From contig CAMVEB010000016.1 in assembly GCA_947166385.1 (NCBI GenBank), forward strand, positions 1-64,000: a stretch of DNA of 64,000 nucleotides, read 5' to 3'. Position numbers and translations under genes: made by a program. This stretch comes from an uncultured Clostridia bacterium (GTDB lineage: Bacteria; Bacillota; Clostridia; Christensenellales; Aristaeellaceae). Every line of letters starts with the position of its first letter. The first letter of the stretch is position 1. Positions 38,850 through 64,000 of this stretch are shown here, piece after piece. Below the pieces are notes generated by a model, which searched no databases, was not told the DNA's origin, and saw only the letters and a program-made list of their open reading frames with translations.

Positions 38850-41621
38850 TCATTTAACAGTCACCGTGATGTTCACAAACTTCCCGCTTCCATCTGTGGC
38901 AGAAACTGTAATCACGCACTTTCCGTAGGAGATCGCGTGGATCACGCCGTCTTCGTTCACCGAGGCAACGCTCGGATCGCTGCTGGTGTATTCCAGCTCG
39001 GGATTGGAGGCGTTCTTCGGCGACACCTTTGCGTTCAGGTAGAAGGTTTCGCTTTCCTCGCCGACTTCCATCACAATGTTTGTCTTCTTGACGGTAATGG
39101 TCTTCACGAGGATCGCCTTGACCGTGATGATGCAGGTCGCCTTCTTGCCGCTGCCGTCAATGGAGGAAGCGGTTATCGTACAGGTGCCGGGAGCCACAGC
39201 GGTGACCATGCCGAAATCGTCCACCTTCGCAACCTTCGGGTTGCTGCTGCTCCATTCAATCGTCTGTTCGCCGGCATCCTTCGGGGAGATCTTCGTCTTC
39301 AGCTGGAAGGTCACCGTCTCCATGTACTTCAGCACCAGTTCCTTCTTCGTCGGAGAGATCGTCAGCGTCTTGATCGGCTTGTAGATGACCGTCACGGCGC
39401 AGCGGGCCTCAATCGCGCTGTTATCCACCGTCCGGGCGGTAATGGTGCACTTGCCGACTCCCTGGATCGTCACCAGACCGCCGCTGACCGTCGCCACACT
39501 GGGCGTGCTGGTTTCCCAGATGATCTGTTTGTTGTACGCGTCGGTCGGAGTCACCTTGGCCTTCAGCAGGAATGTCTGTACCTTTGCCGGATCATAGGCG
39601 ATGACCTTTTCGGTGATGTTCAGCTTCACCTGGGCAATGTTCGGTTTCTTGACAGTCAGCGTCATCGAGGCGGAAACGCCGTCCTCCTCCGTGCGGGCGG
39701 TGATTGTACAGACGCCCGGGCCAACGGCGGTTACCAGGCCGGTATCGGTCACTGTCGCCACTTTATCGTCAGAGCTGACCCACTCCAGCGTATACTCCGC
39801 TTCCGGCGGATCCACCTTCGCGCGCAGCTGGTAAGTCGGGAACGGATTGCTCACCGTCATCTCCAGCGTCTTTTTCTTCACGTTCAGCTTGATGGACTCC
39901 ACGATGGAGGAAGTCACCGTCACATAGCAGTAGGCTTTCGCGCCGCTGCCGTCCTTCGCCTTCACGGTAATCTTGCAGGTGCCGGGAGAAATGCCGGTGA
40001 TCAGGCCCTTCTTGTTCACGGTGGCCACGTTCGTATTGTTGCTCTTATAGGAAACCTCCTGGTTCGGATTGTCCGCCGGGACGAAAATCGGTACAAGCTG
40101 GGCCGTCGCTGCCACGCCGTCCGTCAGGTACAGCGTCACCTTGTTCAGGTTCAGGTTCAGCTGGGTCGTTCCTTTGAAAGTGACTGTCACTTTGCAGGTG
40201 TCGAAAGCGCCGCCGCCGTCCGTGGCCTTACAGGTAATCTTGCAGGTACCGTATCCCACCGCGGTGACCAGGCCGTACTCATCCACGGTCGCCACGTTCT
40301 CATCACTGCTGCTCCAAACCAGATCGTCATCCGTCACGGAGGCAGGGGATATTGTCGCCGACAGCTGTGCCGTCGGCATCGCGCCGTCTTTCGTCACATA
40401 CAGCTTCAGGGAGTTCTCGCTCAGCTGCACAGTGGTAATCAGGATTTCCTTGACCGTGATTTTCATTTCCGCCTTGGCGCCGTATCCGTCACCCGCGGTA
40501 ACACGGATCGTGCAGGTGCCGGGGCCGACAGCCGTCACCAGGCCGATATCGTTCACTGTCGCCACGGTCGGATCGCTGGTGGAGTAGAGCAGGCTCTGAT
40601 CTGCCGCGTCAGCCGGATAAACGGTGGGAATAATCTGCCAGGTGACTTTCTCGTCTTTCTTCATCACCATCGTCTTGCTGTATTTGTTCAGCGTGATGGA
40701 GGTAACCTGGCCGCTGGTCACCTTGATCGTGCATTCTCCGATGACGCCGCTGCCATCCAGGGCCACTGCCCTGATCTTGCATTTGCCGACGCCCACCGCC
40801 GTCACCAGACCGTATTCATCGACTTCGGCAACGCTTTCCTTGCTGCTCTCCCACTCAAAGGAGGTATCCGCCGCGTCAGCAGGTTCCACAAGCGCCGCCA
40901 GCAGCAGCTCGTCTCCCAGCTGCATGTCCGCTTTTTCCGGCGTGACGGTAATCTTCTCTACCATCTTTTCGGAAACCACCACAGGCACCGTAACGCTGTG
41001 GCCGCTTCCGTCCGCTGTGGACACCGTGATGGTACAGGTACCCTCTCCGATGCCGGTAATCACGCCGCCGCTTACCTTCGCCACCTTGATGTCGGAGGAA
41101 ACGTAGTTCAGCGTCTTGTCCGCCGCGTTGGCCGGCTCAACCTTCGTCGTCAGCGTATATGTCGGCAGCAGTCCTGTGCCTAATAACAGCTTCACGCCTT
41201 TCGTCGATTCCTTCACCGTCAGCTTTGTCACCTTCTGCTGCAGCCCTGTCTCACCGCACACGATACAGGTGCCGTAACCGTTCACCGTATGGAATTCCGG
41301 CCCCAGCAGAATCTTGCCGCAGTCCGCGCAAACCTGGGTATGCCGCAGGGTGTCGGTCTTGTATTCCAGGTCGGTATGGTGCTGCTCGGTGTTCACACCT
41401 GTGGCGCCACAGACATCGCAGGTGCCGCTCGGCTCCGTGCAGGGCGCTCCGTGCCGCTGCTTGATGACTTTTCCGCAGATTTTGCACGTCAGCGTGTGAT
41501 ACTTGTTGTCCAGTTTTGTTGCGTTCTGGTACTGGTGGTTGCAGGCAGCCTGGGCCGTCACGGACCAGACGAGCGCCAGAGCCAGCGCCAGGACGATCAT
41601 CCATACAAGACGACGCTTCAT
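38850..41621 (-). CDS. Secreted protein: four Cys-pair modules + nine Big2 Ig-like repeats
   Basis: The 923-residue protein has a signal peptide (about 1-26). A roughly 95-residue N-terminal region holds four CxxC pairs (CKIC, CDVC, CADC, CIVC) spaced like zinc-ribbon or rubredoxin-type knuckles. After that come nine Big2 (bacterial Ig-like) repeats of about 88 residues, each with V/A-x-VxxxGLVTAVGxGTCTITxxxxDGSG. Big2 arrays form extended surface adhesins or spacers. No LPXTG, SLH or other anchor is visible. The start is the ATG preceded by GGAGG at eight bases. The related protein at 53509-55206 has the same Cys-pair plus Big2 combination. The 45-base gap after the upstream GT2 gene suggests co-transcription. 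Confidence 0.88.
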   Translation of the reverse strand: MKRRLVWMIVLALALALVWSVTAQAACNHQYQNATKLDNKYHTLTCKICGKVIKQRHGAPCTEPSGTCDVCGATGVNTEQHHTDLEYKTDTLRHTQVCADCGKILLGPEFHTVNGYGTCIVCGETGLQQKVTKLTVKESTKGVKLLLGTGLLPTYTLTTKVEPANAADKTLNYVSSDIKVAKVSGGVITGIGEGTCTITVSTADGSGHSVTVPVVVSEKMVEKITVTPEKADMQLGDELLLAALVEPADAADTSFEWESSKESVAEVDEYGLVTAVGVGKCKIRAVALDGSGVIGECTIKVTSGQVTSITLNKYSKTMVMKKDEKVTWQIIPTVYPADAADQSLLYSTSDPTVATVNDIGLVTAVGPGTCTIRVTAGDGYGAKAEMKITVKEILITTVQLSENSLKLYVTKDGAMPTAQLSATISPASVTDDDLVWSSSDENVATVDEYGLVTAVGYGTCKITCKATDGGGAFDTCKVTVTFKGTTQLNLNLNKVTLYLTDGVAATAQLVPIFVPADNPNQEVSYKSNNTNVATVNKKGLITGISPGTCKITVKAKDGSGAKAYCYVTVTSSIVESIKLNVKKKTLEMTVSNPFPTYQLRAKVDPPEAEYTLEWVSSDDKVATVTDTGLVTAVGPGVCTITARTEEDGVSASMTLTVKKPNIAQVKLNITEKVIAYDPAKVQTFLLKAKVTPTDAYNKQIIWETSTPSVATVSGGLVTIQGVGKCTITARTVDNSAIEARCAVTVIYKPIKTLTISPTKKELVLKYMETVTFQLKTKISPKDAGEQTIEWSSSNPKVAKVDDFGMVTAVAPGTCTITASSIDGSGKKATCIITVKAILVKTITVKKTNIVMEVGEESETFYLNAKVSPKNASNPELEYTSSDPSVASVNEDGVIHAISYGKCVITVSATDGSGKFVNITVTVK

Positions 41622-51114: not shown

Positions 51115-51163
51115 ATTCTTTCCATCACCATCAGCGCACAAAGAATGCGACAGCCTGCTGATG
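51115..51163 (+). ncRNA. Interleaved inverted repeats before glf (pseudoknot-like)
   Basis: Four seven-base blocks lie in the order ATTCTTT (51115-51121), CATCAGC (51129-51135), AAAGAAT (51140-51146) and GCTGATG (51157-51163). The first pairs with the third and the second with the fourth, an H-type pseudoknot order. It ends about 40 bases before the glf ATG. The glf promoter is not clear, so transcription of this element is assumed. Confidence 0.4.
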
Positions 51164-51204
51164 CCGTTCAAATAGATTATTGGATGAATACCGGAGGAAT
51201 GAAA

Positions 51205-52308
51205 ATGTACGATATATTGATCGTCGGTGCCGGGCTCTATGGCGCCGTCATCGCCCGCCGCGCCATGGATGCCGGAAAAAAAGTAATGGTAATCGATCGC
51301 CGGAATCATATCGCCGGCAATGTCTATACCGAGAAGATCGAAGGCATTCAGGTGCACCGCTACGGCGCGCATATTTTCCATACCAATAACAAAGAGGTAT
51401 GGAATTACGTCCAGCGCTTCGCAACTTTCAATCGTTTTACGAATTCCCCGGTCGCTAATTTTCACGGGGAATTATACAGTCTTCCCTTCAACATGTATAC
51501 CTTCAATAAAATGTGGGGTGTCGTTACGCCGGAAGAAGCCGCGGCGAAGATCGAGGAGCAGCGGAAAGCAGCCGGCATCACCGAGCCAAGAAACCTGGAA
51601 GAGCAGGCCATCTCCCTGGTCGGTACCGACATCTATGAAAAGCTGATCAAAGGTTATACCCAGAAGCAGTGGGGCCGCCCCTGCAGCGAGCTGCCGGCTT
51701 TCATCATCCGCCGGCTGCCCGTACGGCTGACCTTTGATAATAATTACTTCAATGCCCTGTATCAGGGAATCCCGGTCGGCGGGTACACCGCCATGGTGAA
51801 AAAAATGCTCGAAGGCACTGAAGTCCGCTTGGGTGTCGATTACCTGGAGGACAGGGAGAGTTGGAACGCCCAGGCAGAAAAGGTCATCTACACCGGTGCG
51901 ATTGATGAATACTTCGGCTATCGGTTAGGCTATCTGGAATACCGCTCTGTCCGTTTTGAGACGCAAACCCTTGATAAGCCGAATTTCCAGGGCAACGCGG
52001 CCGTGAACTACACAGACAGCGATACGCCCTGGACCCGGATCATCGAGCATAAATGGTTCGAGTTCGGCAAAGATGCGCAGGGGAATGACCTGCCGAAGAC
52101 CGTCATCAGCCGGGAATACAGCACGGAATGGAAACCAGGCGATGAACCGTATTACCCGGTGAACGATGATAAAAATACCGCCCTTTACGGACGGTATAAA
52201 GATCTCGCTTCCAGAGAGGAAAGAGTTCTCTTTGGCGGACGTCTCGGAGAATACCGCTATTATGATATGGATCAGGTCATTGCCTCAGCGTTGAATGCTT
52301 CAATATGA
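51205..52308 (+). CDS. glf: UDP-galactopyranose mutase
   Basis: Glf interconverts UDP-galactopyranose and UDP-galactofuranose using reduced FAD, feeding galactofuranose-containing glycans. The 367-residue protein has the FAD fingerprint GAGLYGAVIARR (9-20), then RNHIAGNVYTE, YGAHIFHTN and the later GYTQKQWG and EYRSVRFETQ stretches of the family. I chose the ATG with GGAGG seven bases upstream; an upstream in-frame reading begins in non-coding sequence. It shares a divergent region with the LRR gene and ends at a bidirectional terminator (52336-52361) shared with the CAP-protein gene. It supplies Galf to the surface glycan genes around it. Confidence 0.96.
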   Translation: MYDILIVGAGLYGAVIARRAMDAGKKVMVIDRRNHIAGNVYTEKIEGIQVHRYGAHIFHTNNKEVWNYVQRFATFNRFTNSPVANFHGELYSLPFNMYTFNKMWGVVTPEEAAAKIEEQRKAAGITEPRNLEEQAISLVGTDIYEKLIKGYTQKQWGRPCSELPAFIIRRLPVRLTFDNNYFNALYQGIPVGGYTAMVKKMLEGTEVRLGVDYLEDRESWNAQAEKVIYTGAIDEYFGYRLGYLEYRSVRFETQTLDKPNFQGNAAVNYTDSDTPWTRIIEHKWFEFGKDAQGNDLPKTVISREYSTEWKPGDEPYYPVNDDKNTALYGRYKDLASREERVLFGGRLGEYRYYDMDQVIASALNASI

Positions 52309-52366: not shown

Positions 52367-53353
52367 TTATTCAATCTCAAAGCATTCATCGTCTTCCAGC
52401 ACGACCATGAATTCATCGCCCCATCCCAGCGGCGGATCGTAATCCTCGATGATCGTCGGTGCCTCATCATGATCTTTCCCGTCGTTGACGACGGAGACTG
52501 GAAGCTGAATGCTTTTGTTTCCGATCGAAGTCTCAACAGTACTCATGCCGGTTGATTTTCCGGTCACTTTCTTCCCCTTCACGGAAACGCCGGAATCTTT
52601 CGCTTTCCATTTGCAGTCGTTCAGAACCAGCTTTGCTCCGGTGTTGCTCTGGATAATCGCGTTCGGCAGGGAAACGGACTCGCCGACATTCACTGTCAGC
52701 ATTTCTTCCTCTGCCATAACGTTCCGCGCGTTCTTGACAAGTAAATCAGAGGATGCATCCACGGTATTTGATTTATACCGGTTTGAATCCACGCCCTTTG
52801 AACCGCCGGCGCCAAACGCCTGTGCCCAGTACACCATGTTTCCGACTTTCACGCAGCCGAAGCCAACCTTTGTAAACTCGCTGCGAAGCATGTTCCGCCG
52901 GTGACCCTGGCCGTTGTAATTCTTGTCCTCTTCCGCAAATGCGTCGAAAGCCGCCTTGGCGCTGCCATACCCGTAGCAGATGTTCTCTCCCTTGGAGTTG
53001 TAACCGTTCGGGAACGCGGAAGACCACTGGGAAGCATTCGGCCGGGTATGGCTGAAGTAAGCCGCAATCTCCACCGCGCGCTGCATGGCTGTCCGTTCCA
53101 GGTTATAGTCATATTCCAGCTTGCCCAGATTTTTGACCTTAACCTTGGTCTTGTTGTCCTTATCCAGATACCAGGCCGTCTTCTTGTTGGTGCGGAATTT
53201 GTTGACCAGATCCAGCATCTTGCGGGCCTCGTCATACTTGTATTCTGCTTTGACCTGCACCTGCACCGTCTCTGCGGCCAGCGCCTGGGAAGCGCAGGCA
53301 AAGATCAGCATCGCCGTCAACAGAAGGGCCGTGAGAGAACGAATCGTTTTCAT
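52367..53353 (-). CDS. Secreted CAP-domain (SCP/PR1) protein
   Basis: The 328-residue protein has a signal peptide (about 1-26). A CAP domain (about 38-190) has YFSHTRPNASQWSS, GENICYGY, and GQGHRRNMLRSEFTKVGFG with metal-ligand-type His and Glu residues. The C-terminal 130 residues resemble a Big2-type or immunoglobulin-like domain with an acidic tail. CAP proteins of this type in Clostridia lie on the surface or in the spore coat; the biochemical activity is unknown. The start has AAGGAG seven bases upstream, at good spacing, while a longer frame adds ten residues without a site. Its promoter is at 53407-53435. Confidence 0.88.
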   Translation of the reverse strand: MKTIRSLTALLLTAMLIFACASQALAAETVQVQVKAEYKYDEARKMLDLVNKFRTNKKTAWYLDKDNKTKVKVKNLGKLEYDYNLERTAMQRAVEIAAYFSHTRPNASQWSSAFPNGYNSKGENICYGYGSAKAAFDAFAEEDKNYNGQGHRRNMLRSEFTKVGFGCVKVGNMVYWAQAFGAGGSKGVDSNRYKSNTVDASSDLLVKNARNVMAEEEMLTVNVGESVSLPNAIIQSNTGAKLVLNDCKWKAKDSGVSVKGKKVTGKSTGMSTVETSIGNKSIQLPVSVVNDGKDHDEAPTIIEDYDPPLGWGDEFMVVLEDDECFEIE

Positions 53354-53406
53354 GCCGAAACTCCTTTTCTTACATACGGTCAATACGGCAATTTCCCAAC
53401 GTAACC

Positions 53407-53508: not shown

Positions 53509-55206
53509 TTACTTCACCTTGACCTTCAGGGTAGCGGTCACACCATCAGCGGTGACGGTGATCTTCACAGTACCCTTAGACTTAGCGGTAACCAGACCAG
53601 AAGAGGACACTTTCGCGATCTTCTTGTCGGCGGACTTGTAGGTCACTTTCTTCGCGTCAACGGGAGAGGTGGAAGCAACGATCTGGAAGGTCTTGCCAAC
53701 CTTCAGAGACACGCTCTTCTTGTTCAGCGTGACACTGGTGACCTTCACTTCTTTTTCTTCTACCAGGTTCTCGCCTTCGGCGTCATAGGTGATCTTGTTC
53801 TCGGTCTGCATGCAGCGAGCGCAGTAACGGACAAAGTGATAGACTTCCTTGCCCTTCAGGGTGTAGGTGTCAGCCAGTTCCCACTGCTTCCAGTTGTGGC
53901 CCAGAGCGGGAGTCCGGAGCATCTTGTAACGATAGGGATCCAGCTGGGGTCCGGAATGCTTCTGTTCCCATTTAGCGTCAGCTACGCCGTCGTCGTACAC
54001 GCACTTGTACAGGTCAATACCTTCGTACAGGCAGGTAGCGGAGATGGACTTGGCAGCCCACCAGGCATACTCTTCACGCTTCTTGTCGGTATCCTTCAGC
54101 CACTTACCGGTGGCGCTGGGGGCATAGGCTTCAACACCAGCGTCATCCTTCTCTTCGGGCTTGTCCTTCCACAGGTGGGAGTGGAGCTTCATGTTGGTGC
54201 GCGCAATGCGGAAGTGCTTCTGCTCAACACCGGCAGCCTTCCAGACTTTGGGATCGCACTTGCAGTAGGGGCATACAAACACGTCGGTATGGGAGTAGCA
54301 GGTGTTCAGCCAGTGCTCTTCATCCTTCTCTTCCCAGTAGCCGCCAGCCTTGGGGAACTCATCCCTGTTGGGGTTCGGCTTCACGGTGCCTTCCCAGGTG
54401 TTGTCCCAGCCGGGATTCCGGATGGCAACCTTCTTGTAGTAGTTTTCCTTGTCCACGCCGGGGCTGGTAAGATACTGAACCAGACCGCAAACGACGCAGG
54501 CACGACGGGCCTGACCTTCGCTCCAGCAGGTGGGCTCTTTGACAACTTTCCAGTCAGTCAGGGTGTGGGCAACGGTGCGCAGACTGACTTTGTAGGTCCT
54601 GTCCACATGGCCGCACTTGATGCACTTCCGATAGGCATCGCCTTCTCTGGCGCAGGTGGGCATGGTGATCACTTCAAAGTGCTTGCCGGCGTCGGTGCCC
54701 TTCTCGGTGAAGTAACCGAGCCACAGATCGCCGTTGGCCAGCTTCTTCGCTTCGCTCTCGGCGTAAGTGGTGGCGTCATACTTGTGCATCCGCATGTCGA
54801 TCACGCGGGTCTTGCCGGTAATCTTACAACGCAGGCAGACATCTTCCGCTTCACCGAACTCGGTGCAGGTGGGAGCCTTTTTGATGTGGCCCCATGCCAG
54901 CAGGGTTTCTGCATCGTGGGCGCTGGCCCAGTCATGGCCCAGAGCTTTGACAACGACAGTATGGACGATCCCAGCGCCTTCCTTGAGGCACTTGAAGTCG
55001 GCCAGACCGGTTTCGGTACAGGTCGGCATCTTGCGGACAACGTAAGAGGTATTGTCCACTTCATGGCCGAGGATCGTGGTGATGGAATCCAGTTCGCCCC
55101 AGGCCACAGGCTTGGTGGTGTCCGGCACATCCAGTGCCAGAGCGGTTGCTGCGATCGCCAGAGTCAGAACCAGCGCGATCGCAAACACGGTGAGAAGTTT
55201 CTTCAT
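53509..55206 (-). CDS. Secreted Cys-pair repeat protein with C-terminal Big2 domain
   Basis: The 565-residue protein has a signal peptide (about 1-24). Repeated units follow that each combine a PTCxExG motif with a CxxC pair and a conserved LGHDW or HxxxxW-type segment (CLRC, CIKC, CVVC, CPYC, CARC). This reads as five or more Cys-knuckle modules. The last 85 residues are a Big2 domain (VTSVTLNKKSVSLKVGKTF). The cysteines might bind metal or form disulfides outside the cell. The gene has its own strong promoter (55471-55499), a structured leader of about 260 bases with a 14-codon ORF, and its own terminator, so it is a monocistronic and probably abundant product. The function is unknown. Confidence 0.85.
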   Translation of the reverse strand: MKKLLTVFAIALVLTLAIAATALALDVPDTTKPVAWGELDSITTILGHEVDNTSYVVRKMPTCTETGLADFKCLKEGAGIVHTVVVKALGHDWASAHDAETLLAWGHIKKAPTCTEFGEAEDVCLRCKITGKTRVIDMRMHKYDATTYAESEAKKLANGDLWLGYFTEKGTDAGKHFEVITMPTCAREGDAYRKCIKCGHVDRTYKVSLRTVAHTLTDWKVVKEPTCWSEGQARRACVVCGLVQYLTSPGVDKENYYKKVAIRNPGWDNTWEGTVKPNPNRDEFPKAGGYWEEKDEEHWLNTCYSHTDVFVCPYCKCDPKVWKAAGVEQKHFRIARTNMKLHSHLWKDKPEEKDDAGVEAYAPSATGKWLKDTDKKREEYAWWAAKSISATCLYEGIDLYKCVYDDGVADAKWEQKHSGPQLDPYRYKMLRTPALGHNWKQWELADTYTLKGKEVYHFVRYCARCMQTENKITYDAEGENLVEEKEVKVTSVTLNKKSVSLKVGKTFQIVASTSPVDAKKVTYKSADKKIAKVSSSGLVTAKSKGTVKITVTADGVTATLKVKVK

Positions 55207-55465
55207 GGTTTCCCTCCTAAAATAAGTATTTAATAGGTTACCGCTTGAGCATTAGTGACGGGTCGGATCACGTGCTCTTTTGTTAAGACCTTTCATCTTA
55301 CCCGCCTCCTTTTCTTCCGTGAATAAAACAAACAAATAATTTCTGCAGGAAACTTACGGAATCCGTGGCGATCTAACCGACCCGCTGCTCAATGAGAAAA
55401 CTCCGGATTCCGTAAGGGCGTACTACGTGAAACGACATAAGAACGAAACTCGCTCCACGAGTTCG
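55207..55465 (-). ncRNA. Structured 5' leader with inverted repeat, loop pairing and upstream ORF
   Basis: The leader of the secreted protein gene runs from the promoter start (about 55465) to its ATG. A perfect 13-base inverted repeat (CTTACGGAATCCG at 55353-55365, CGGATTCCGTAAG at 55404-55416) encloses a 38-base loop. The loop has CCGACCCG (55377-55384) and TGCTCAA (55386-55392). These are complementary to CGGGTCGG (55259-55266) and TTGAGCA (55245-55251), which lie in the last codons and just after the stop of the 14-codon ORF 55252-55296. The layout is a hairpin whose loop pairs downstream. It does not match a riboswitch class that I recognise. The rest of the gene-free stretch 55466-55579 holds only the promoter and A+T-rich sequence. 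Confidence 0.6.
55252..55296 (-). CDS. 14-codon leader peptide ORF
   Basis: Reading MKGLNKRARDPTRH and then TAA. AGGAGG lies eight bases before its ATG, an ideal ribosome site. Its codons for Asp-Pro-Thr-Arg overlap the block complementary to the hairpin loop. The peptide is basic. Translation would clear that block from pairing, so ribosome movement could switch the leader structure. No other evidence shows that it is translated. Confidence 0.5.
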   Translation of the reverse strand: MKGLNKRARDPTRH

Positions 55466-55470
55466 GAGAC

Positions 55471-55499
55471 ATTATAACCGATCTCCCATCTTTTTGCAA
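55471..55499 (-). promoter_or_regulatory. Promoter of the Cys-pair secreted protein
   Basis: On the minus strand TTGCAA (55494-55499), a 17-base spacer and a perfect TATAAT (55471-55476), with A+T-rich sequence upstream. The start is about 55464. Confidence 0.85.
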
Positions 55500-55579
55500 T
55501 ACCTTTTTTTACAGAAGTAAGAATTTTTGTTAAAAATTTGTTTCAATCTGGCAGGCATTTGTGTTTTTCCCCTGTTTCT

Positions 55580-56962
55580 TTAAAACTGAAAATAGATGAA
55601 CGGATTAAAGTCTCCGCCCAGCAGAAACCCTGCTGAAACAACGAAAAGAAGCAGAAACAGAACGCTCCCCCATCCCTTGTGGTTCCCCACGCCCTTCCAT
55701 ACCAGATGTGACAAAGCCGGAATGCAGGCCAGCAGGCTGAGGATGAACGCGGCTGCCATAGCGCCGGTGAACAGGTCCGTCACCCTTTCAATCCCATATG
55801 TTCCGCCGGAAAACATAAACATCCGCCGAAAATAATCACCAGCCTGAGGCAGAGAGTCTGCCCGGAACAGCACCCAGCCGATCAGGACTGCGAACAGCGT
55901 CATGATCCGCCGGAGTATGGAAGGCAGCTTTTCCTGGATCTTGCCCCACAGTCCCCGCTCCAGCAGCATCAGGGCCCCGTGGAACAGCCCCCAGCAGATG
56001 AAAGTCCAGTTTGCTCCGTGCCATAAGCCGGTCAGGAAGAAAACGATCAGCAGGTTCAGCAGCGTCCGGCTTTTTCCTTTTCGGTTGCCTCCCAGCGGGA
56101 TATAGACATAATCCCGAAACCAGGAGGACAGAGAAATGTGCCACCGCCGCCAGAATTCCCGGATGCTGCGGGAGGAATACGGCTGATCAAAGTTCTCCCG
56201 AAAACGGAAGCCGAAGATCTGCCCCATCCCGATCGCCATGTCGGAGTAGGCACTGAAGTCCAGGAATATCTGCAGCGCGTAGCACAGGGCGCCGGCCCAG
56301 GCATAGAGGGCAGGCAGGCTCTCCGGGGCAATGCTGAACATGGTGTCCGCAACCTTACCCATGGCATTGGCCAGCAGCACCTTTTTTGCGAAACCGAGGA
56401 TAAATCGCTTGATCCCCGCGGCCAGCATGTCCGGTGAGGTGTTCCGTTCATCAATCTCCCGGTTGATATCCGCGTAGCGCACAATCGGCCCCGCCACCAG
56501 CTGCGGAAACAGCAGGATATACAGCGCCAGTTTCATCAGATTCCGCTGCGGAGGAACGTTCCCCCGATACACATCTATTAAATAGGAAAGAATCTGGAAC
56601 GTAAAAAAGGAAATCCCGATCGGCAGGGCAATCCGGGGCATCCCGGTGATTCCCAGATTATCCGTGAAGAAATTGAAGTACTTGAAATACCCCAGCACAC
56701 CCAGATCCACAGCCACGGCCGCGGCCAGGGCCGGTTTCTTCTTTTTTGCGTTTCCGATCCACAGACCGAATCCATAGTTGCACAGTACCAGCACCAACAG
56801 CAGCGCGAAATGTCCCAGCCCGCCCCAGGCATAGAATACCAGGGAGAAAAACAGCAGCACAAAGTTTTTCACGCGCATGCTTCCGAATCGGTCCGCCAGC
56901 CCATAGCAGATCAGCACCGCCGGCAGGAAGGCGAAAACGAATACCGCGGATGAAAAAACCAA
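55580..56962 (-). CDS. MBOAT-family O-acyltransferase (AlgI/DltB-like)
   Basis: The 460-residue protein has about ten hydrophobic helices and the MBOAT signature FLTGLWHGANWTFICWGLFHG, with the catalytic His in WHG. Early sequence SSAVFVFAFLPAVLICY and later FWRRWHISLSSWFRDYVYIPLGGN are typical of AlgI. It moves acyl (usually acetyl) groups across the membrane onto polysaccharide hydroxyls. The upstream gene, 15 bases away, encodes an AlgJ/AlgX-like partner, so the pair should O-acetylate the glycan of this island. It is the last gene of the right-end operon. No clear terminator is seen between it and the promoter of the secreted protein. Confidence 0.93.
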   Translation of the reverse strand: MVFSSAVFVFAFLPAVLICYGLADRFGSMRVKNFVLLFFSLVFYAWGGLGHFALLLVLVLCNYGFGLWIGNAKKKKPALAAAVAVDLGVLGYFKYFNFFTDNLGITGMPRIALPIGISFFTFQILSYLIDVYRGNVPPQRNLMKLALYILLFPQLVAGPIVRYADINREIDERNTSPDMLAAGIKRFILGFAKKVLLANAMGKVADTMFSIAPESLPALYAWAGALCYALQIFLDFSAYSDMAIGMGQIFGFRFRENFDQPYSSRSIREFWRRWHISLSSWFRDYVYIPLGGNRKGKSRTLLNLLIVFFLTGLWHGANWTFICWGLFHGALMLLERGLWGKIQEKLPSILRRIMTLFAVLIGWVLFRADSLPQAGDYFRRMFMFSGGTYGIERVTDLFTGAMAAAFILSLLACIPALSHLVWKGVGNHKGWGSVLFLLLFVVSAGFLLGGDFNPFIYFQF

Positions 56963-58183: not shown

Positions 58184-58837
58184 TTACTCCTTTCCCCCGA
58201 AAAAATGATCTTCCAGCATCATGCACCAGCAATGGTATACCGGCAAATGCAGTTCCTGGATCCGATAGGTTTCCGTTTCTGGTACGCGCACCGCAACGTC
58301 CGCCACCCTCGCCAGTTCCCCGCCGTCTCTCCCGGTCAGACCGATGATCCGAATTCCCAATGCCCTGGCCACCACCGTTGCGGACAGAACGTTCTGGCTG
58401 TTCCCGCTGGTACTGATTCCCAGGAACACATCGCCTTTCCTTCCGAATCCGAACAGCTGTTGGGCAAACACGCCCAGCCCGTCCACATCGTTGATGTAGG
58501 CGGTCGTCATTGCCTCGTGGGCCACCAGCGGAATCGCCATCAGCCCACATTCGAGGTTCCTGGCCAGGTTCTCCCCGCGTACAGGATCGATCGCCTTCAG
58601 CTTCTCCGCCATTTCTTCGGAGATCGGTCGCGGTGTCATGAACCGCTTCATCAGTTCTCCGGCGATATGCTCGCTATCCGCCGCGGATCCGCCGTTCCCG
58701 GCGATCAGAAGTTTATGATCGCTCTCATAGCAGGTTTCCATGATTTTGTAGGCATCGATGATGGAATCCCTGCAGGGTTCCAGGATCGGATACCGCTCCG
58801 TCAGAAGGTTGAGATGTTTTTCCAGTTTCGGTTCCAT
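58184..58837 (-). CDS. gmhA: Sedoheptulose-7-phosphate isomerase
   Basis: GmhA converts sedoheptulose 7-phosphate to D-glycero-D-manno-heptose 7-phosphate, the first step of nucleotide-heptose synthesis. The 217-residue protein has the SIS-domain features LIAGNGGSAADSEHIAGEL, the GISTSGNSQNVL phosphate loop and a C-terminal HCWCMMLEDHFF helix. The start could be the ATG at 58837, with GGGAG seven bases upstream, or one at 58843 that overlaps the upstream stop as ATGA; I took the former. It is followed six bases later by the AlgJ-like gene and belongs to the heptose operon with the HddC-GmhB fusion and HddA. Confidence 0.93.
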   Translation of the reverse strand: MEPKLEKHLNLLTERYPILEPCRDSIIDAYKIMETCYESDHKLLIAGNGGSAADSEHIAGELMKRFMTPRPISEEMAEKLKAIDPVRGENLARNLECGLMAIPLVAHEAMTTAYINDVDGLGVFAQQLFGFGRKGDVFLGISTSGNSQNVLSATVVARALGIRIIGLTGRDGGELARVADVAVRVPETETYRIQELHLPVYHCWCMMLEDHFFGGKE

Positions 58838-58839
58838 TT

Positions 58840-60087
58840 TCATTCTCCCACGGCTGCTACAATGTCGAGCAGGGATTTTTCCCCGACCCGGGCTGTATGG
58901 CATCCGGCGGCAGTGCCTGCCCTGATATCGTTCTCGCCGTCCCCGATCATCCAGGAGTTCTCCAGGTCAATGTTGAAATCCTTCGCCGCCTGCAGAATCA
59001 TCCCGGGCTTTGGCTTCCGGCAGTCGCAATCGATCTTCAGCTCCGGGATTTCCCCTTCGAATCCTTTGTCCGGATGATGCGGGCAATAGTAGATCGCGTC
59101 AACATATGCCCCTTCCTGCCCCAGTAGCGTCTCCATCTTATTGTGGATCTCCCGCAGATGATCTTCCGTCACCTCGCCCCGGGCAATCACTGGCTGGTTG
59201 GTCACAACGATCGCCAGATATCCGGATGCGTTGATCTTCCGGATCGCCTCCGCCGCCCCGGGCAGCAGTTCAAAGTCGTCGATGTTCCGCAGAAACCCGA
59301 CATGCTTGTTGATCGTCCCGTCCCGGTCCAGAAAAACTGCCCGCTGTTTGTGCAGCAGGTTCTTCGCCTGCACCCGCCCGGCTGCAAAGTCTTCGCACAC
59401 CGCCCGGTACCGGTCCGGTGTCCCCATGTCCTTGACGTATTCCGGGCTGTCGTAGCAGAACATTTTTCCGTTGCCGCACAGAGGTTTCAGAATCTGCCGG
59501 TCCAGATCGATTTTCCCGGCTGCCAGGTCCTCCCCGGCCAGATCCAATGCCGCCGGTGAAATCACATGCAGCCCGGCGTTGACCCGGTTCCGGTACCATG
59601 TCGGCCGTGGGTCTTCCTTCGTCAGCCATTGCTGCACCGCGCCGTGGTCATCCGCAATCAGGAGCCCGCTGTCATAGGGGTGGCTGTTCGGATGGGTAAA
59701 CAGTGTCGCCAGTCCGCCCTTCTCCCAATGATAATCCACAAATCGCCGAAAGTCGATATCGAAAACCGCGTCTGCGTTCAGCAGCAGGAAATCTTCCGTC
59801 AGTCTGTCCCGTAGCCTGAACAGCGCACCGGCGTTGCCCAGCGGCACTTCCTCGATGAAGTATTCCATCCGCACCCCAAAGGCGGATCCGTCCCCGAAGT
59901 AATCCATGATCCGATCCGCCATGTGGCTGACCGTGAGGATCAGATCAGTGAAGCCTTGCTCCCGCAGGCATTCGATTTCCCGCTCCAGCACCGGCTTCCC
60001 GCCGATCGGGATCATAGGCTTCGGGAGATCTCCCGCCACCGGGGCAATCCGGGTGCCCTTCCCCCCGGCCATGATGACTGTCTTCAT
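58840..60087 (-). CDS. Fusion: heptose-1-phosphate guanylyltransferase-like + GmhB-like HAD phosphatase
   Basis: The 415-residue protein joins two steps of GDP-heptose synthesis. Residues 1-235 form a nucleotidyltransferase with MAGGKGTRIAP, KPMIPIGGKPVLE and the LLNADAVFDID metal site. Residues about 248-415 form a HAD phosphatase with DRDGTIN (motif I), VVTNQPVIARGE (motif II), CPHHPDKG and a zinc-loop-type DCDCRKPKPGM, then GDGENDI. The HAD part matches GmhB, which dephosphorylates heptose 1,7-bisphosphate. The first part matches HddC. Fused HddC-GmhB proteins are less common than separate ones. The ATGA overlap with hddA upstream and close linkage to gmhA give a compact unit. Confidence 0.9.
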   Translation of the reverse strand: MKTVIMAGGKGTRIAPVAGDLPKPMIPIGGKPVLEREIECLREQGFTDLILTVSHMADRIMDYFGDGSAFGVRMEYFIEEVPLGNAGALFRLRDRLTEDFLLLNADAVFDIDFRRFVDYHWEKGGLATLFTHPNSHPYDSGLLIADDHGAVQQWLTKEDPRPTWYRNRVNAGLHVISPAALDLAGEDLAAGKIDLDRQILKPLCGNGKMFCYDSPEYVKDMGTPDRYRAVCEDFAAGRVQAKNLLHKQRAVFLDRDGTINKHVGFLRNIDDFELLPGAAEAIRKINASGYLAIVVTNQPVIARGEVTEDHLREIHNKMETLLGQEGAYVDAIYYCPHHPDKGFEGEIPELKIDCDCRKPKPGMILQAAKDFNIDLENSWMIGDGENDIRAGTAAGCHTARVGEKSLLDIVAAVGE

Positions 60088-61094
60088 TCTGCCTCCTTCG
60101 GCACATAGCTCTCCGGCGAGTAATGGATCACCCTCGTTCCCCCGTCCTCGAAACGGAACGGGATGTACAGCAGATCCTTCATGGCGTCCATGACGGCCTG
60201 CCGCTTCTCCGGCTGCACGTAGAACACCAGGAACCCGCCGCCGCCGGCGCCGAGCAGCTTGCCACCCAGCGCCCCGGCCCGGATCCCTTTCTCATACAGG
60301 GCGTCGATGTTGTCTGTCGTAACGGCCTTCCCCGTCTGGCGCTTCAGCTGCCAGGTCGTGTCCAGCAGCCGGCCAAAGTCGTCCAGGTCGCTGTGCTTGT
60401 CCTCCAGCACCTCCTGGGCCTGATCCACCAGCGCCAGCATCTGTTTCAGCTGGGCCGTCTTCTCCGCATAGCTCTGGGTATTCACTTTCTGTACCTCCGA
60501 GCTGAACCGGGTAAATCCGGTGAAGAACATCAGCAGGCTGTCGTTCAGCAGTTTCTTCCGCTCCGGGTGAATAATCACTGGAATCACATCGTAGCTCCCA
60601 TCCGGGTTGAAGACGATCCGGTTCATCCCGCCGAAAGCCGCAGCAATCTGATCCTGCCATCCTCCGGCCTCCCCGCAGAGAGTACGCTCCAGATAAATCG
60701 CGTCGTCCGCCAGCTTCCGCTTGTCGGCATACTTCCCTTTCAGCGCGTAGAATGCGTTCAGCATCCCCACCGCGAAGGACGAACTGGTCCCCAGTCCGGA
60801 CCGGGCCGGAAGATCCGCGTCATAGATCAGCCGGATCTCGTGCATGTCAAGCATCTTCATCGCGTGGCGGATCGCCGGGTGCCGAATCTCCTCAACGTCG
60901 CTGACCTCCTCGACTTTCGAGTAGGTCAGATGCGTCGAGTAATCGAAAAACCGGGGCAGATGGCGCACCGTCACATAGCAGTATTTGTCAAACGTCGAGG
61001 ACAGCACCGCTCCGCCGTATTCCCGGAAGAAGGATTCCATATCCGTTCCACCGCCGAAAAAGGACATCCGGAAAGGGGTTTTCGTGATGATCAT
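60084..61094 (-). CDS. hddA: D-glycero-alpha-D-manno-heptose-7-phosphate kinase
   Basis: HddA phosphorylates the C1 position of heptose 7-phosphate in the GDP-heptose route. The 336-residue protein is a GHMP kinase with the opening MIITKTPFRMSFFGGGTD, the ATP motif PARSGLGTSSSFAVGMLNAF and the C-terminal GALGGKLLGAGGGGFLVFY. These are typical of HddA and the related fucokinase-like enzymes. Together with gmhA and the HddC-GmhB fusion in the same operon the assignment as HddA is firm. Start and stop both overlap neighbours as ATGA, which should keep enzyme amounts in step. Confidence 0.94.
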   Translation of the reverse strand: MIITKTPFRMSFFGGGTDMESFFREYGGAVLSSTFDKYCYVTVRHLPRFFDYSTHLTYSKVEEVSDVEEIRHPAIRHAMKMLDMHEIRLIYDADLPARSGLGTSSSFAVGMLNAFYALKGKYADKRKLADDAIYLERTLCGEAGGWQDQIAAAFGGMNRIVFNPDGSYDVIPVIIHPERKKLLNDSLLMFFTGFTRFSSEVQKVNTQSYAEKTAQLKQMLALVDQAQEVLEDKHSDLDDFGRLLDTTWQLKRQTGKAVTTDNIDALYEKGIRAGALGGKLLGAGGGGFLVFYVQPEKRQAVMDAMKDLLYIPFRFEDGGTRVIHYSPESYVPKEAE

Positions 61095-63484
61095 GTCTTT
61101 CCCGCCTCCTCTTTCATCGGATGGTCAAAATGATAAACGCTGTCCAGAATCCGCTTTGCGCGTTCCTCGGTGTAGTGTTCGTTCGCATGGCGGATCCCGG
61201 CCGCGCTGATCTCCTGTAGCTTCGCCTCATCATCGTACAGCTCAGCGATCCGTTTTGCGATCTCCTCGGCGGTTTCGGCGATCTGCAGGATCCCTTTCGC
61301 ATCCGGAATCCCTTCCGCCCCGCAGGCGGTGGTGATCACCGGCAGGCCGTACCGCATGCTTTCAACCACCTTGCCCTTGACGCCCGCGCCGTATCGCAGG
61401 GGAATCAGGTTCAGTCGGCTGTGCCGGTAGAAATGCTCCAGCTGTTCTTCCGTCAGCAGTCCCTCGATCAAAATCTCATCGTTTTGCAGGTCCGAAACTT
61501 CCTTCGGCATATTGCTGCCGGCGATGTGGATCCGGATCCCGGGGCGCAGCTCCCGCAGTTTCGGCATGATCTCTCCCGCGATCCACTGAGCCGCGTCGAT
61601 ATTCGGCGTATGCTTGTATCCGCCGACGAAGAACAGGTCTTCCCGGTCAGACAGATGATAATCCGCCTCCGGTACCGGATCAAAGAAGTAGGGGGTAATC
61701 GCGACCGCCCGGATGGTCGGATCAATCTTCCGGATCTCCTCGATTTCCGTCTCCGAGGGGTAAGCCGTCAGATCCGCCTTCCGCATCAGGGAAAGCTCCT
61801 TCTCCTTCCAGCTTTCCGCTTCCTTCAGCAGCTCCTTCTTCCCGGTCAGCGCGTATTCCCGCCCAAACCGCAGGAAATGCAGATCGTGGCCGTAGTACAG
61901 GATATGCGCCTTCGTTTTCTCTCGGAGAACATCGATGTAGTTCACCGCGATATGCGGCCGGTTCAGGAAGGCATAGTCAAAGCTGTCCGCATTTTCCGCG
62001 ATCCATTCCTTCCAGTGGGCCCGGTACCAGTTGCCGTACAGCACCTCGATCCCCATCTGCTGCAGCTGGGAGGTATAGGGTTCCTGCCGCATGAAGTTGT
62101 CTCCCAGGAATTTCACGTTAAACCCGGCCTTCACGAACATCTGCAGGTAAGCCAATACGGTCCGGCTGCCGGCATCCTTGTCCGGCTGCGGGGCATAGTG
62201 ATCCACAAACAGCAGCGTCTTTTTCCGCAGGGACCGGTCCCGGGCCAGGAACACGTTCTCCGCGTTGGGCATATGCTCCTTTTCCAGCACGTCCTTCCAC
62301 TTCTCGTAGAACTTCTTCGTGTTCGCGACCTGGTAGGCCTTCTGTCCGTAGGAAGTATCCGTGCCGTTCGATATCCCCTCAAAGTGGATCACCACGGATG
62401 TTGGCTGGTACATCACCCGGTATCCGGCCTTCCGCACCCGGAACGCCAGGTCCGTGTCCTCGCAGTAGGCCGGGGCAAAGGTTTCGTCAAATCCTCCCAG
62501 CTCCCGCCACAGATCAGCCCGGATCATGATCGCCGCGCCGGAGATATAATCCGCTTCCTTCACATAGTTGAATTCGGATTTGTTTGGGTCGCTCCTGTTG
62601 CCGTAGTTCCAGGCACTTCCATCCTTCCACAGGATCCCGCCCGCCTCCTGCAGGCGGCCGTCAGGGTAAATCAGCTTGCTGCCGACCAGGCCGATATCTT
62701 CTGCGGATTCCATCAGATCGATCAGCGGCCGCAGCCAGTTCCGCTGTACCTGGGTATCGTTGTTCAGAAAGAGAATATACTGTCCCTTCGCGCTTTCCGC
62801 CGCGTGGTTGCAGTTCAGCAGGAAACGGAGATTTTCTTTGTTCCGGATCACCTTCACGCCGCTGATCTTCTGCTCCATATCCTTTGTCAGATCTCCGGAG
62901 CAGTCATCCGCAATCAGCACCTCGTAGGGAACATCCCCGGTATTCATCGCGATGGACTTCAGGCAGGCATAGGTATAGGCAAACTGGTTGTAAACCGGGA
63001 TAATGATGGAAACAAGGGGCCGGCCGGAGGTCGGCACATGCAGCGGGGGCACCCGGTCGATCGTGTCATATTCCTCCAGGGGCAGCTGATCCGGCCGGGT
63101 CATCTGAATATCGCCGCCTCCCAGATAGTTGTCCAGCCGCTCGGCGGTGTTCAGAATGCTGCCGCTCTTCATGCCGTCCCGGAAGGTCTTGATATGGCGG
63201 ATATCCACCCGTTTCAGGAAGGCAACCGGATGACGGCAGAACTTTTTGCCCAGTTCCAGCACCAGGCGGCGTTTGCTGTCCGCGGGCATCAGCCTGTCCC
63301 GGAGGTTCCAGCCCGCTGTGCGCATTTTCCAGTAGCGGGATTCGTGAATTTTGCGCAGCTCAATCTCGCAGTCCTGCAGCTGCCGGATCTGTTCCTGCAT
63401 GTTGGCGATTTCCCGCTCATCCGCCTGCACCTGCAGGCGCAGACGGTCCCGCTCCTCGGTCAGCTGGGTCATCTGGTCTTGCAT
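61091..63484 (-). CDS. Two-domain glycosyltransferase: coiled coil + GT2 + GT4
   Basis: The 797-residue protein has an N-terminal coiled coil (about 1-45). A GT2 domain follows (about 155-400), with VSIIIPVYNQFAYTYACLKSI, ADDCSGD, LNNDTQVQRNW and YCEDTDLAFRVRKAGY. The C-terminal GT4-type GT-B domain (about 430-790) has FVDHYAPQPDKDAGSR, LFFVGGYKHTPNIDAAQW, GSNMPKEV and LRYGAGVKGKVVESMRYGLPV. Two transferases in one chain suggest sequential addition to the same acceptor. The start is the ATG that overlaps the upstream stop as TGATG and has GGAGG seven bases before it; a GTG one codon earlier is possible. It works with the heptose operon genes downstream. Confidence 0.88.
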   Translation of the reverse strand: MQDQMTQLTEERDRLRLQVQADEREIANMQEQIRQLQDCEIELRKIHESRYWKMRTAGWNLRDRLMPADSKRRLVLELGKKFCRHPVAFLKRVDIRHIKTFRDGMKSGSILNTAERLDNYLGGGDIQMTRPDQLPLEEYDTIDRVPPLHVPTSGRPLVSIIIPVYNQFAYTYACLKSIAMNTGDVPYEVLIADDCSGDLTKDMEQKISGVKVIRNKENLRFLLNCNHAAESAKGQYILFLNNDTQVQRNWLRPLIDLMESAEDIGLVGSKLIYPDGRLQEAGGILWKDGSAWNYGNRSDPNKSEFNYVKEADYISGAAIMIRADLWRELGGFDETFAPAYCEDTDLAFRVRKAGYRVMYQPTSVVIHFEGISNGTDTSYGQKAYQVANTKKFYEKWKDVLEKEHMPNAENVFLARDRSLRKKTLLFVDHYAPQPDKDAGSRTVLAYLQMFVKAGFNVKFLGDNFMRQEPYTSQLQQMGIEVLYGNWYRAHWKEWIAENADSFDYAFLNRPHIAVNYIDVLREKTKAHILYYGHDLHFLRFGREYALTGKKELLKEAESWKEKELSLMRKADLTAYPSETEIEEIRKIDPTIRAVAITPYFFDPVPEADYHLSDREDLFFVGGYKHTPNIDAAQWIAGEIMPKLRELRPGIRIHIAGSNMPKEVSDLQNDEILIEGLLTEEQLEHFYRHSRLNLIPLRYGAGVKGKVVESMRYGLPVITTACGAEGIPDAKGILQIAETAEEIAKRIAELYDDEAKLQEISAAGIRHANEHYTEERAKRILDSVYHFDHPMKEEAGKT

Positions 63485-64000
63485 CACTTTACCTCCACCG
63501 TACTTCCCATATCATAGTACCCAACCGTGTTCTTCCCCGATACCACCGGGAAAGTGCACACGTCATACAGTCGGTGATACACCTGCAGTACGTTGCTCCC
63601 GTATCCCGTGCACCCCAGGCTCAGCAGGTATTCCCCGCCCTGCAGCATAACCGGCTGTGTGAACGACACAGTCCGCGTCTCCCCGGCCCTGCACAGTCCC
63701 GTCGGGCATCCTTCAATCAGCGTGTTCGTCCCTGTCAGCTCAATCCCCAGCCGGTTCTTGATGCAGAACGCAAAGATCGGATCCTGCAGGTCTCTGTGGA
63801 TCAGCACCTTCATCCGGATCGTGCACTGCTCTCCCTTGACGACGGAGTTCGTCAGCTCGTCTTTTTCATCGAAAATCCCGTAGTCCACGATATCCGCCGA
63901 ATGATCCCCGTACTCGAGCAAATCCGGGTTCCGGTCCATAGCCTCCTGCCAGGTCCCTTCTCCTCCCGCGGATTCCCCGGCCTGCACCCGGACAGCGCCG
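63484..64000 (-). CDS. ABC exporter ATPase, Wzt-type C-terminal sugar-binding domain (partial)
   Basis: Only the C-terminal 171 codons lie in the window; the gene continues past the right edge. The visible part reads as a Wzt C-terminal domain, a beta-sandwich with DIVDYGIFDEKDELTNSVVKGEQCTIRMKV and QVYHRLYDVCTFPVVSGK. Such domains bind the capped end of the glycan to start export. The nucleotide-binding half and probably the permease are outside. This makes a second polysaccharide ABC transporter in the region, of a different type from the extension-less one at 37119-38663. Confidence 0.82.
   Translation of the reverse strand, partial: GAVRVQAGESAGGEGTWQEAMDRNPDLLEYGDHSADIVDYGIFDEKDELTNSVVKGEQCTIRMKVLIHRDLQDPIFAFCIKNRLGIELTGTNTLIEGCPTGLCRAGETRTVSFTQPVMLQGGEYLLSLGCTGYGSNVLQVYHRLYDVCTFPVVSGKNTVGYYDMGSTVEVK

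Follow-up and report, generated by a model that had tools for sequence, protein, structure and literature searches.

The leader studied here lies between a gene for a DltB-like acyltransferase (176.7 bits, below the model cut-off of 375) and a gene for a secreted cysteine-pair/Big_2 protein of an uncultured Clostridia bacterium. It raises the question of which of its parts acts on the secreted protein: a folded RNA, or a short upstream open reading frame (uORF) that the same RNA carries. A sequence-only reading of the window, by which we mean the whole 64,000-nucleotide stretch of DNA that was analyzed, had described a structured leader and proposed that the loop of a long inverted repeat pairs with the end of the uORF to form a pseudoknot-like switch. 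We compared this leader with those of related genes, with regard to both the RNA and the peptide.

Organization of the locus

The features of the locus are collected in Table 1. The C-terminal domain of the main-gene protein was assigned by a Big_2 match with an E-value of 9.1e-14. The strong promoter and the 14-codon uORF with an ideal ribosome site, both pointed out by the sequence-only reading, are present; within 55100-55650, two promoter-like sites were found on both strands together, versus 0.6 in shuffled sequences. The stem-loop near the presumed transcript start has a Stouffer z of -6.9 over nine leaders (individual z from -0.9 to -6.05) and is weak (z above -1.5) in G671, G672, G673 and G748. 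The view that the leader belongs to no Rfam class was borne out by a search across the 64-kb window, which gave no match at the gathering score and four matches far below it (E 3 to 6.6). The window contains three terminator-like sites, none of them between the uORF and the main gene in the window leader.

Table 1. Positions of the leader elements, the main gene and neighboring frames in the window.
Feature	Position	Strand	Remarks
Promoter, -35 TTGCAA / -10 TATAAT	55499-55494 / 55476-55471	minus	17-nt spacer; 10/12 consensus
5'-terminal stem-loop region, presumed transcript start	55416-55465	minus	50-mer, -16.1 kcal/mol, z -2.35
Inverted repeat CTTACGGAATCCG/CGGATTCCGTAAG	55416-55404 / 55365-55353	minus	13/13 paired, loop 38 nt; window only
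Loop blocks TTGAGCA / CGGGTCGG	55392-55386 / 55384-55377	minus	one base apart; window only
Partners of the loop blocks, TGCTCAA / CCGACCCG	55251-55245 / 55266-55259		7 bases apart, at uORF end
uORF Shine-Dalgarno AGGAGG	55305-55310	minus	from sequence
uORF MKGLNKRARDPTRH	55252-55296	minus	14 codons plus stop; counterparts in 14 other genomes
Core, codons 7-12, AGA GCA CGT GAT CCG ACC (RARDPT)	55261-55278	minus	R[AST]RDPT in 15/15 leaders
Core hairpin	55247-55277	minus	5' arm, codons 7-10; 3' arm beyond uORF stop; z -1.77 in the window alone
Main-gene Shine-Dalgarno AGGAGG	55213-55218	minus	from sequence
Main gene	53509-55206	minus	secreted; signal peptide (by eye), cysteine-pair (PTCT..G..C..C) repeats, C-terminal Big_2 domain
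DltB-like acyltransferase gene	55580-56962	minus	
CAP-domain protein gene	52367-53383	minus	next gene downstream of main gene
UDP-galactopyranose mutase gene	51154-52308	plus	TIGR00031, 418.7 bits, above cut-off
936-residue open frame	about 38889-41246	minus	
GDP-heptose-pathway-like genes	58184-61094	minus	
Large glycosyltransferase-like frame	61091-63487		by eye

The surroundings of the leader offer several further observations. The CAP-domain protein has a signal-peptide-like start, and several stretches of the 936-residue frame match the Big_2 part of the main protein. The cysteine-pair repeats (A1 profile positions 159-243) match residues 851-967 of chain A of PDB 9qa6, a solved IgA protease chain, with an E-value of 2.6e-8, which hints at the fold of the repeats. 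The GDP-heptose-pathway-like genes encode a GmhA-like isomerase and an HddA-like kinase, both scoring below cut-off, and a fused protein in which a sugar-1-phosphate nucleotidyltransferase is joined to a GmhB-like HAD phosphatase (GmhB_yaeD, 151.7 bits, slightly over the cut-off). The UDP-galactopyranose mutase gene lies near these heptose genes, and the glycosyltransferase-like frame near the mutase gene.

Relatives of the secreted protein carry the same uORF

Relatives were counted as distinct proteins retrieved by single-protein searches at E<=1e-12. Ten of the 12 are preceded by a uORF encoding R-[A/S/T]-R-D-P-T; the leader of G830 is cut by the contig end, and L156, a second protein of G673 that matches query residues 467-574 only (C-terminal part), has no uORF. 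Within the genus (45 genomes, E<=1e-10), main-gene relatives were found in two genomes besides the window, G212 (34% identity to the window's protein) and G209 (46% over its first part), whose uORFs, MRNPFVRARDPTVSH and VRETIRRARDPTKGR, have the same core as that of the window, MKGLNKRARDPTRH. A protein search of the family (308 genomes) gave G250, from another genus, with the uORF MTHKHFRSRDPTVCLTHGDQGFTINKKVFGRN. Later protein searches, in which relatives found by the motif served as queries, yielded G748, G824, G825, G829, G831, G832 and G837; the uORF of G837 is MGRDLRTRDPTTGS, and that of G748, MKAWAARARDPTGQ..., is in frame with the gene. The proteins of seven relatives were aligned and are only 24-33% identical to that of the window.

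The uORF was also sought by its motif. One genome for each of 84,980 species was scanned with a pattern made up of a Shine-Dalgarno sequence, ATG, 15 free bases and codons for R[AS]RDPT, and six of the 34 hits are uORFs directly before signal-peptide cysteine-pair proteins. Two of the six (G250 and G212) were already known, and four were new: MMMCRMRSRDPT (L083, G669), MTGQMARARDPTGSRC... (L095, G671), MNDHRSRSRDPTSAATLE (L106, G672) and MNRSQFRSRDPTVPQ... (L108, G673), the last in frame with its gene. The other 28 hits were judged to be chance matches from the ORF and downstream context only; one of them, L104, overlaps a longer frame on the other strand. The ungapped R[AS]RDPT DNA pattern occurs once per genome in seven uORF genomes, always at the uORF; the reversed control pattern has eight hits over the same seven genomes. 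In the 308 family genomes, the exact DNA pattern gave four hits, namely three uORFs and one in G121, against one for the reversed control; the G121 hit was judged to be chance because its RARDPT frame has no Met between the two stops that bound it. A scan of viral contigs for the pattern gave no hits.

Among weaker cysteine-pair relatives, the uORF is missing in 13 of 14 loci with an identified start, L045 being the only one to have it, and is likewise missing from G437, which encodes a lipoprotein. A profile search at the order level matched 37 of 395 genomes, mostly at the level of the repeats. Scanning for short R.RDP frames gave chance frames only in L001-L075 (for example L058, on the opposite strand) and, in L110-L139 (30 order-level loci, the window's own included), two unrelated frames besides the window, L120 and L139. 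A contig scan with the whole main protein confirmed none of 36 pattern stretches. Since one genus contains G669, G670 (the same as G250, judged by contig and place), G672 and G673, and family searches around G672 and G671 both gave G670 and G748, the 15 uORF genomes seem to belong to a single family of Clostridia. Two of the genome records come from sheep rumen and sheep duodenum.

The core is conserved as a peptide

Fifteen leaders were compared, 11 of which (the window included) had been found without the motif; five of these 11 are close relatives in one genus. Only the 11 bear on conservation, because the other four were found through a pattern that fixes both motif and spacing. The uORF has the general form of a strong Shine-Dalgarno sequence followed by M-x4/5-R-[A/S/T]-R-D-P-T, with four or five non-conserved residues before the core, which begins at codon 6 or 7 in all 15 leaders if TTG is taken as the start in G825, G829, G831 and G832. 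A distance of exactly five residues was dropped as a feature, the distance being four in G824, G825, G829, G831, G832 and G837.

The core lies 66-93 nt before the main-gene start. In nine leaders, the uORF start is 84-111 nt from the gene and the uORF stop 2 to 61 nt, two of the nine being in-frame fusions, and the two reading frames stand in any relation to each other. uORF length ranges from 11 codons to frames with no stop before the gene, those that stop before it having 11-35 codons. The stop directly follows the T of the core in G669 and G824, and elsewhere the core is followed by tails of up to 24 residues or by read-through. In G748 (L146) and G673 (L108), where the uORF continues in frame without a stop into the main gene, the protein may gain an N-terminal extension of 31 or 35 residues before its signal peptide.

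Variation within the core follows the codons. The second positions of all six codons are invariant in the 15 leaders, and first positions vary only at both Arg codons (A/C, synonymous, each switching between AGN and CGN) and at codon 8 (Ala/Ser/Thr). No codon has a constant third position; at codon 11 it is G in four leaders, A in two, T in three and C in six. Codons 10-12 are invariant at positions 1 and 2 in 15/15, and their third positions take two, four and four bases, respectively. This pattern also holds in the 11 leaders found without the motif. The synonymous differences therefore indicate that the peptide is under selection, and the uORF is tied to one secreted protein family.

Comparison of the leaders as DNA gave little similarity. 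A search with the window leader in 200 family genomes (E<=0.001), G209 and G212 lying outside those 200, gave three matches, one being the window itself; the other two cover only query bases 252-280, which is the main ribosome site. By blastn, G212 is similar to the window leader from the uORF onward and G209 near the main ribosome site, G671 and G748 match weakly (E 0.017-0.059), and G250, G669, G672 and G673 give nothing at E<=1.

A hairpin forms on the core codons

In folds that begin at the core, the core codons of all 15 leaders find a pairing partner no more than about 50 nt downstream. This region exceeds shuffled sequences in stability, with a Stouffer z of -7.8 over nine leaders (individual z from -0.89 to -6.07), or -5.9 with a fixed 48-nt window, and the hairpin is weak on its own in G209 (-1.07), G212 (-0.89) and G671 (-0.91) as well as in the window. 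With the 15 nt before the uORF start included, the window core pairs upstream with the ribosome-site region and its downstream pairing probability is 0.0, while the core of G671 pairs upstream about half the time. The full-leader fold of the window contains the core hairpin.

Hairpin length and loops differ widely between leaders, and a MAFFT alignment of eight hairpin regions (A2) was too gappy for pair counts, so that a swap test stands in for them. It took ten of the 15 leaders, leaving out five near-identical relatives of G669. The arms of a leader pair better with each other than with swapped ones (P = 0.07, 0.005, 2e-5 and 4e-4 for arms of 9, 12, 15 and 18 nt), and the leader's own arm is the best partner in only 2-4 of the ten. 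Compensatory changes include GCA/TGC, GCT/AGC and TCG/CGA.

The inverted repeat and the loop pairing were seen only in the window

The 13-base inverted repeat, its 38-base loop and the two loop blocks with complementary partners downstream are present in the window as the sequence-only reading had described them (Table 1). In 200 dinucleotide shuffles, inverted repeats reached at most 11 bp, and 15 collinear complementary bases were reached in none of 300 mononucleotide shuffles, in agreement with the claim that they exceed chance. The transcribed strand folds to -82.1 kcal/mol over 55195-55475 (z -2.54; 0/200 shuffles as stable); the fold of the plus strand of the leader is not exceptional (z -1.05). 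We estimated the pseudoknot at -83.7 kcal/mol before any pseudoknot penalty (the sum of -58.8 for the fold in which both strands are kept unpaired and -24.9 for their duplex), versus -77.5 kcal/mol without it.

Eight of the 14 relatives' leaders were examined for the same elements, and none keeps either the repeat or the loop complementarity. Their longest perfect inverted repeats are 6-9 bp, as found by a script that skips very short loops (G209, for example, has a 9-bp hairpin whose loop is only 3 nt). The second collinear block was not found in them, and the best match of 0-7 bases is reached by 23-100% of shuffles. The part of the window leader upstream of the uORF has no blastn match at E<=1 in the eight relatives except for a weak one in G671, which starts about 17 bases before the uORF. 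Consequently, of the proposed switch between loop and uORF end, the energetic possibility holds for the window; conservation in relatives, on which the sequence-only reading had made its own refutation depend, does not hold in the leaders examined, and the pseudoknot is at best special to the window species. On this comparison, the stronger conserved signal in the leader is the uORF peptide, which the sequence-only reading had missed, and not the inverted repeat.

Discussion

We consider it on balance likely, by analogy with known leader peptides, that the leader carries a cis-acting, ribosome-pausing leader-peptide uORF controlling a secreted protein in one gut Clostridia family, and the six-residue core is probably kept because the peptide slows its own ribosome and so tunes the next gene. 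The uORF would be translated from its strong Shine-Dalgarno sequence and, with the core codons in the active centre, the short nascent chain would slow or arrest the ribosome. We infer such pausing, together with translation of the uORF, because pause motifs of both kinds, R-x-R and X-P-X, have been described: ribosomes exposed to erythromycin pause at +X(+) and XP(X), and in drug-free translation DP(P) gives the strongest pause of the XP(P) type (PMC6238534). None of the cited passages on pause motifs lists D-P-T itself as a pause.

In a comparison with the Erm leaders, the RxRDPT core combines the two types of motif at comparable positions. In ErmDL, the stall occurs at R6-L7-R8; residues before R-L-R matter too, and stalling with telithromycin depends more on R-L-R than stalling with erythromycin does (PMC8298421). 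In ErmBL, the stall is at Asp10, and R7-K11 are critical for it (PMC8274638). These are likewise short uORFs with decisive residues at about codons 6-11, and in the present R-x-R-D the first R is codon 6 or 7 and D is codon 9 or 10, residues to which we would assign a role in the pause. Unlike in the Erm leaders, D-P-T follows R-x-R, the residues before the core are not conserved, and the target is a signal-peptide cysteine-pair protein, not a methyltransferase or resistance gene.

The Erm analogy does not extend to unmasking of the main Shine-Dalgarno sequence, for which the computed folds give no support. When the core is taken to be covered by a ribosome, the thermodynamic estimate of access to that site shifts by under 0.1 in 11 of 14 leaders; access is reduced in G250 and G672 and increased in G671, so that the folds give no consistent release. 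For this reason, we prefer a role as roadblock or stabilizer, as for the ermC stall sequence: a stalled 5' ribosome stabilizes downstream mRNA in Bacillus subtilis (PMC3997798), and ErmB expression also tracks mRNA stability (PMC5118997). The paused ribosome would keep the core hairpin open and, close to the 5' end of the transcript, act as a roadblock, the most likely outcome being a tuned mRNA lifetime and supply of the secreted protein; some ligand or condition may make the pause regulated. B. subtilis 5' stabilizers, which comprise strong Shine-Dalgarno sequences as well as the ermC stall sequence, are similar in combining a 5'-end roadblock with a long-lived mRNA (PMC3997798), while a plain Shine-Dalgarno stabilizer has no conserved peptide; for the present leader, stabilization is a putative role. 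A strong obligatory arrest is argued against by the stop-less in-frame uORFs of G673 and G748, which would have to be tolerated. The leader also differs from a transcription attenuator, given the lack of a terminator-like site between uORF and gene in the window.

Other leader peptides share some of these traits. RAPP-like and Clostridia arrest peptides (SecM, ApcA, ApdA/ApdP and CliM) are encoded by cis uORFs and have a short conserved motif with a free remainder (PMC10987492; for CliM, PMC13183943), and RAPP-like peptides contain Arg and Pro (PMC10987492). The 2024 survey looked for peptides with an N-terminal localization signal, and those it covered precede Sec/YidC genes (PMC10987492), whereas the core described here is not RAPP-like, is preceded by 4-5 residues without a signal, and stands before a secreted protein. 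The copper uORF CruR resembles it in that envelope genes are controlled via a pause motif, but encodes a DUF2946 protein with a CXXC and a C-terminal RAPP motif and acts with Rho termination (PMC9426467); neither motif is found in the present peptides. The main text of the 2024 survey has no word beginning with 'RDP' (PMC10987492), the strings RARDPT, RSRDPT and RXRDPT were not found in the literature searched, and among the matches listed for leader peptides, none names an RxRDPT motif in its title or the start of its abstract.

Four other explanations can be weighed against pausing by the nascent chain. Pairing of the 38-nt loop with the uORF end as a pseudoknot, switched by uORF translation or a ligand, accounts for two arrangements that shuffles did not reach (0/300 for the collinear bases, 0/200 for the 13-bp stem) and is energetically favorable before the penalty; a ribosome on the core would moreover cover part of the pairing site, which would make the two states mutually exclusive. 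The pairing is nonetheless absent in the eight relatives tested, and among the 45 genomes of the genus that were searched, the main gene was found in only two others, both with diverged leaders, so we regard this switch as rather unlikely. A selected RNA structure (riboswitch-like or a protein-binding hairpin), with the peptide as a by-product, is quite unlikely. It would explain why the core-codon hairpin is kept with compensatory changes, and why five relatives of one genus keep the RNA after the core though not its reading frame, but not a variation with a codon period, in which wobble positions change and AGN and CGN are swapped around a peptide that is fixed except for its A/S/T second residue. 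The wide variation in hairpin length and loops and the lack of an Rfam match in the window also speak against it.

A plain translated uORF, acting through ribosome load, coupling or 5' mRNA protection by its strong Shine-Dalgarno sequence without nascent-chain pausing, would be in line with the strength of these sites, with the stable fold near the presumed transcript start and with the start-to-gene distances of 84-111 nt in nine leaders. We consider it unlikely, since it leaves the constancy of the core residues over synonymous codons unexplained; the spread of stop-to-start distances and the in-frame fusions in the same leaders indicate that termination-reinitiation is not the feature that is kept. 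The in-frame arrangement in G673 and G748 might also suggest a peptide that has its effect in trans, or one that serves as a tag at the N-terminus, for instance of an N-extended secreted protein. This seems very improbable, as the uORF is unfused in the other 13 leaders, shows little conservation beyond six residues and has no signal sequence before the core.

Returning to nascent-chain pausing, RxRDPT could, more tentatively, represent a new class of very short arrest peptide, in which R-x-R and D-P-x at a near-fixed distance from the start sense a small molecule or the state of translation in the tunnel and set how much of a surface protein is made in gut Clostridia, as an Erm-like device for ordinary physiology rather than for resistance. 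The known short tunnel-sensing leader peptides mainly control resistance genes (for example, PMC8298421), and the known long arrest peptides mainly genes of the secretion machinery (for example, PMC10987492). A selected peptide of about 12 residues before a secreted protein would broaden the range of targets for such devices.
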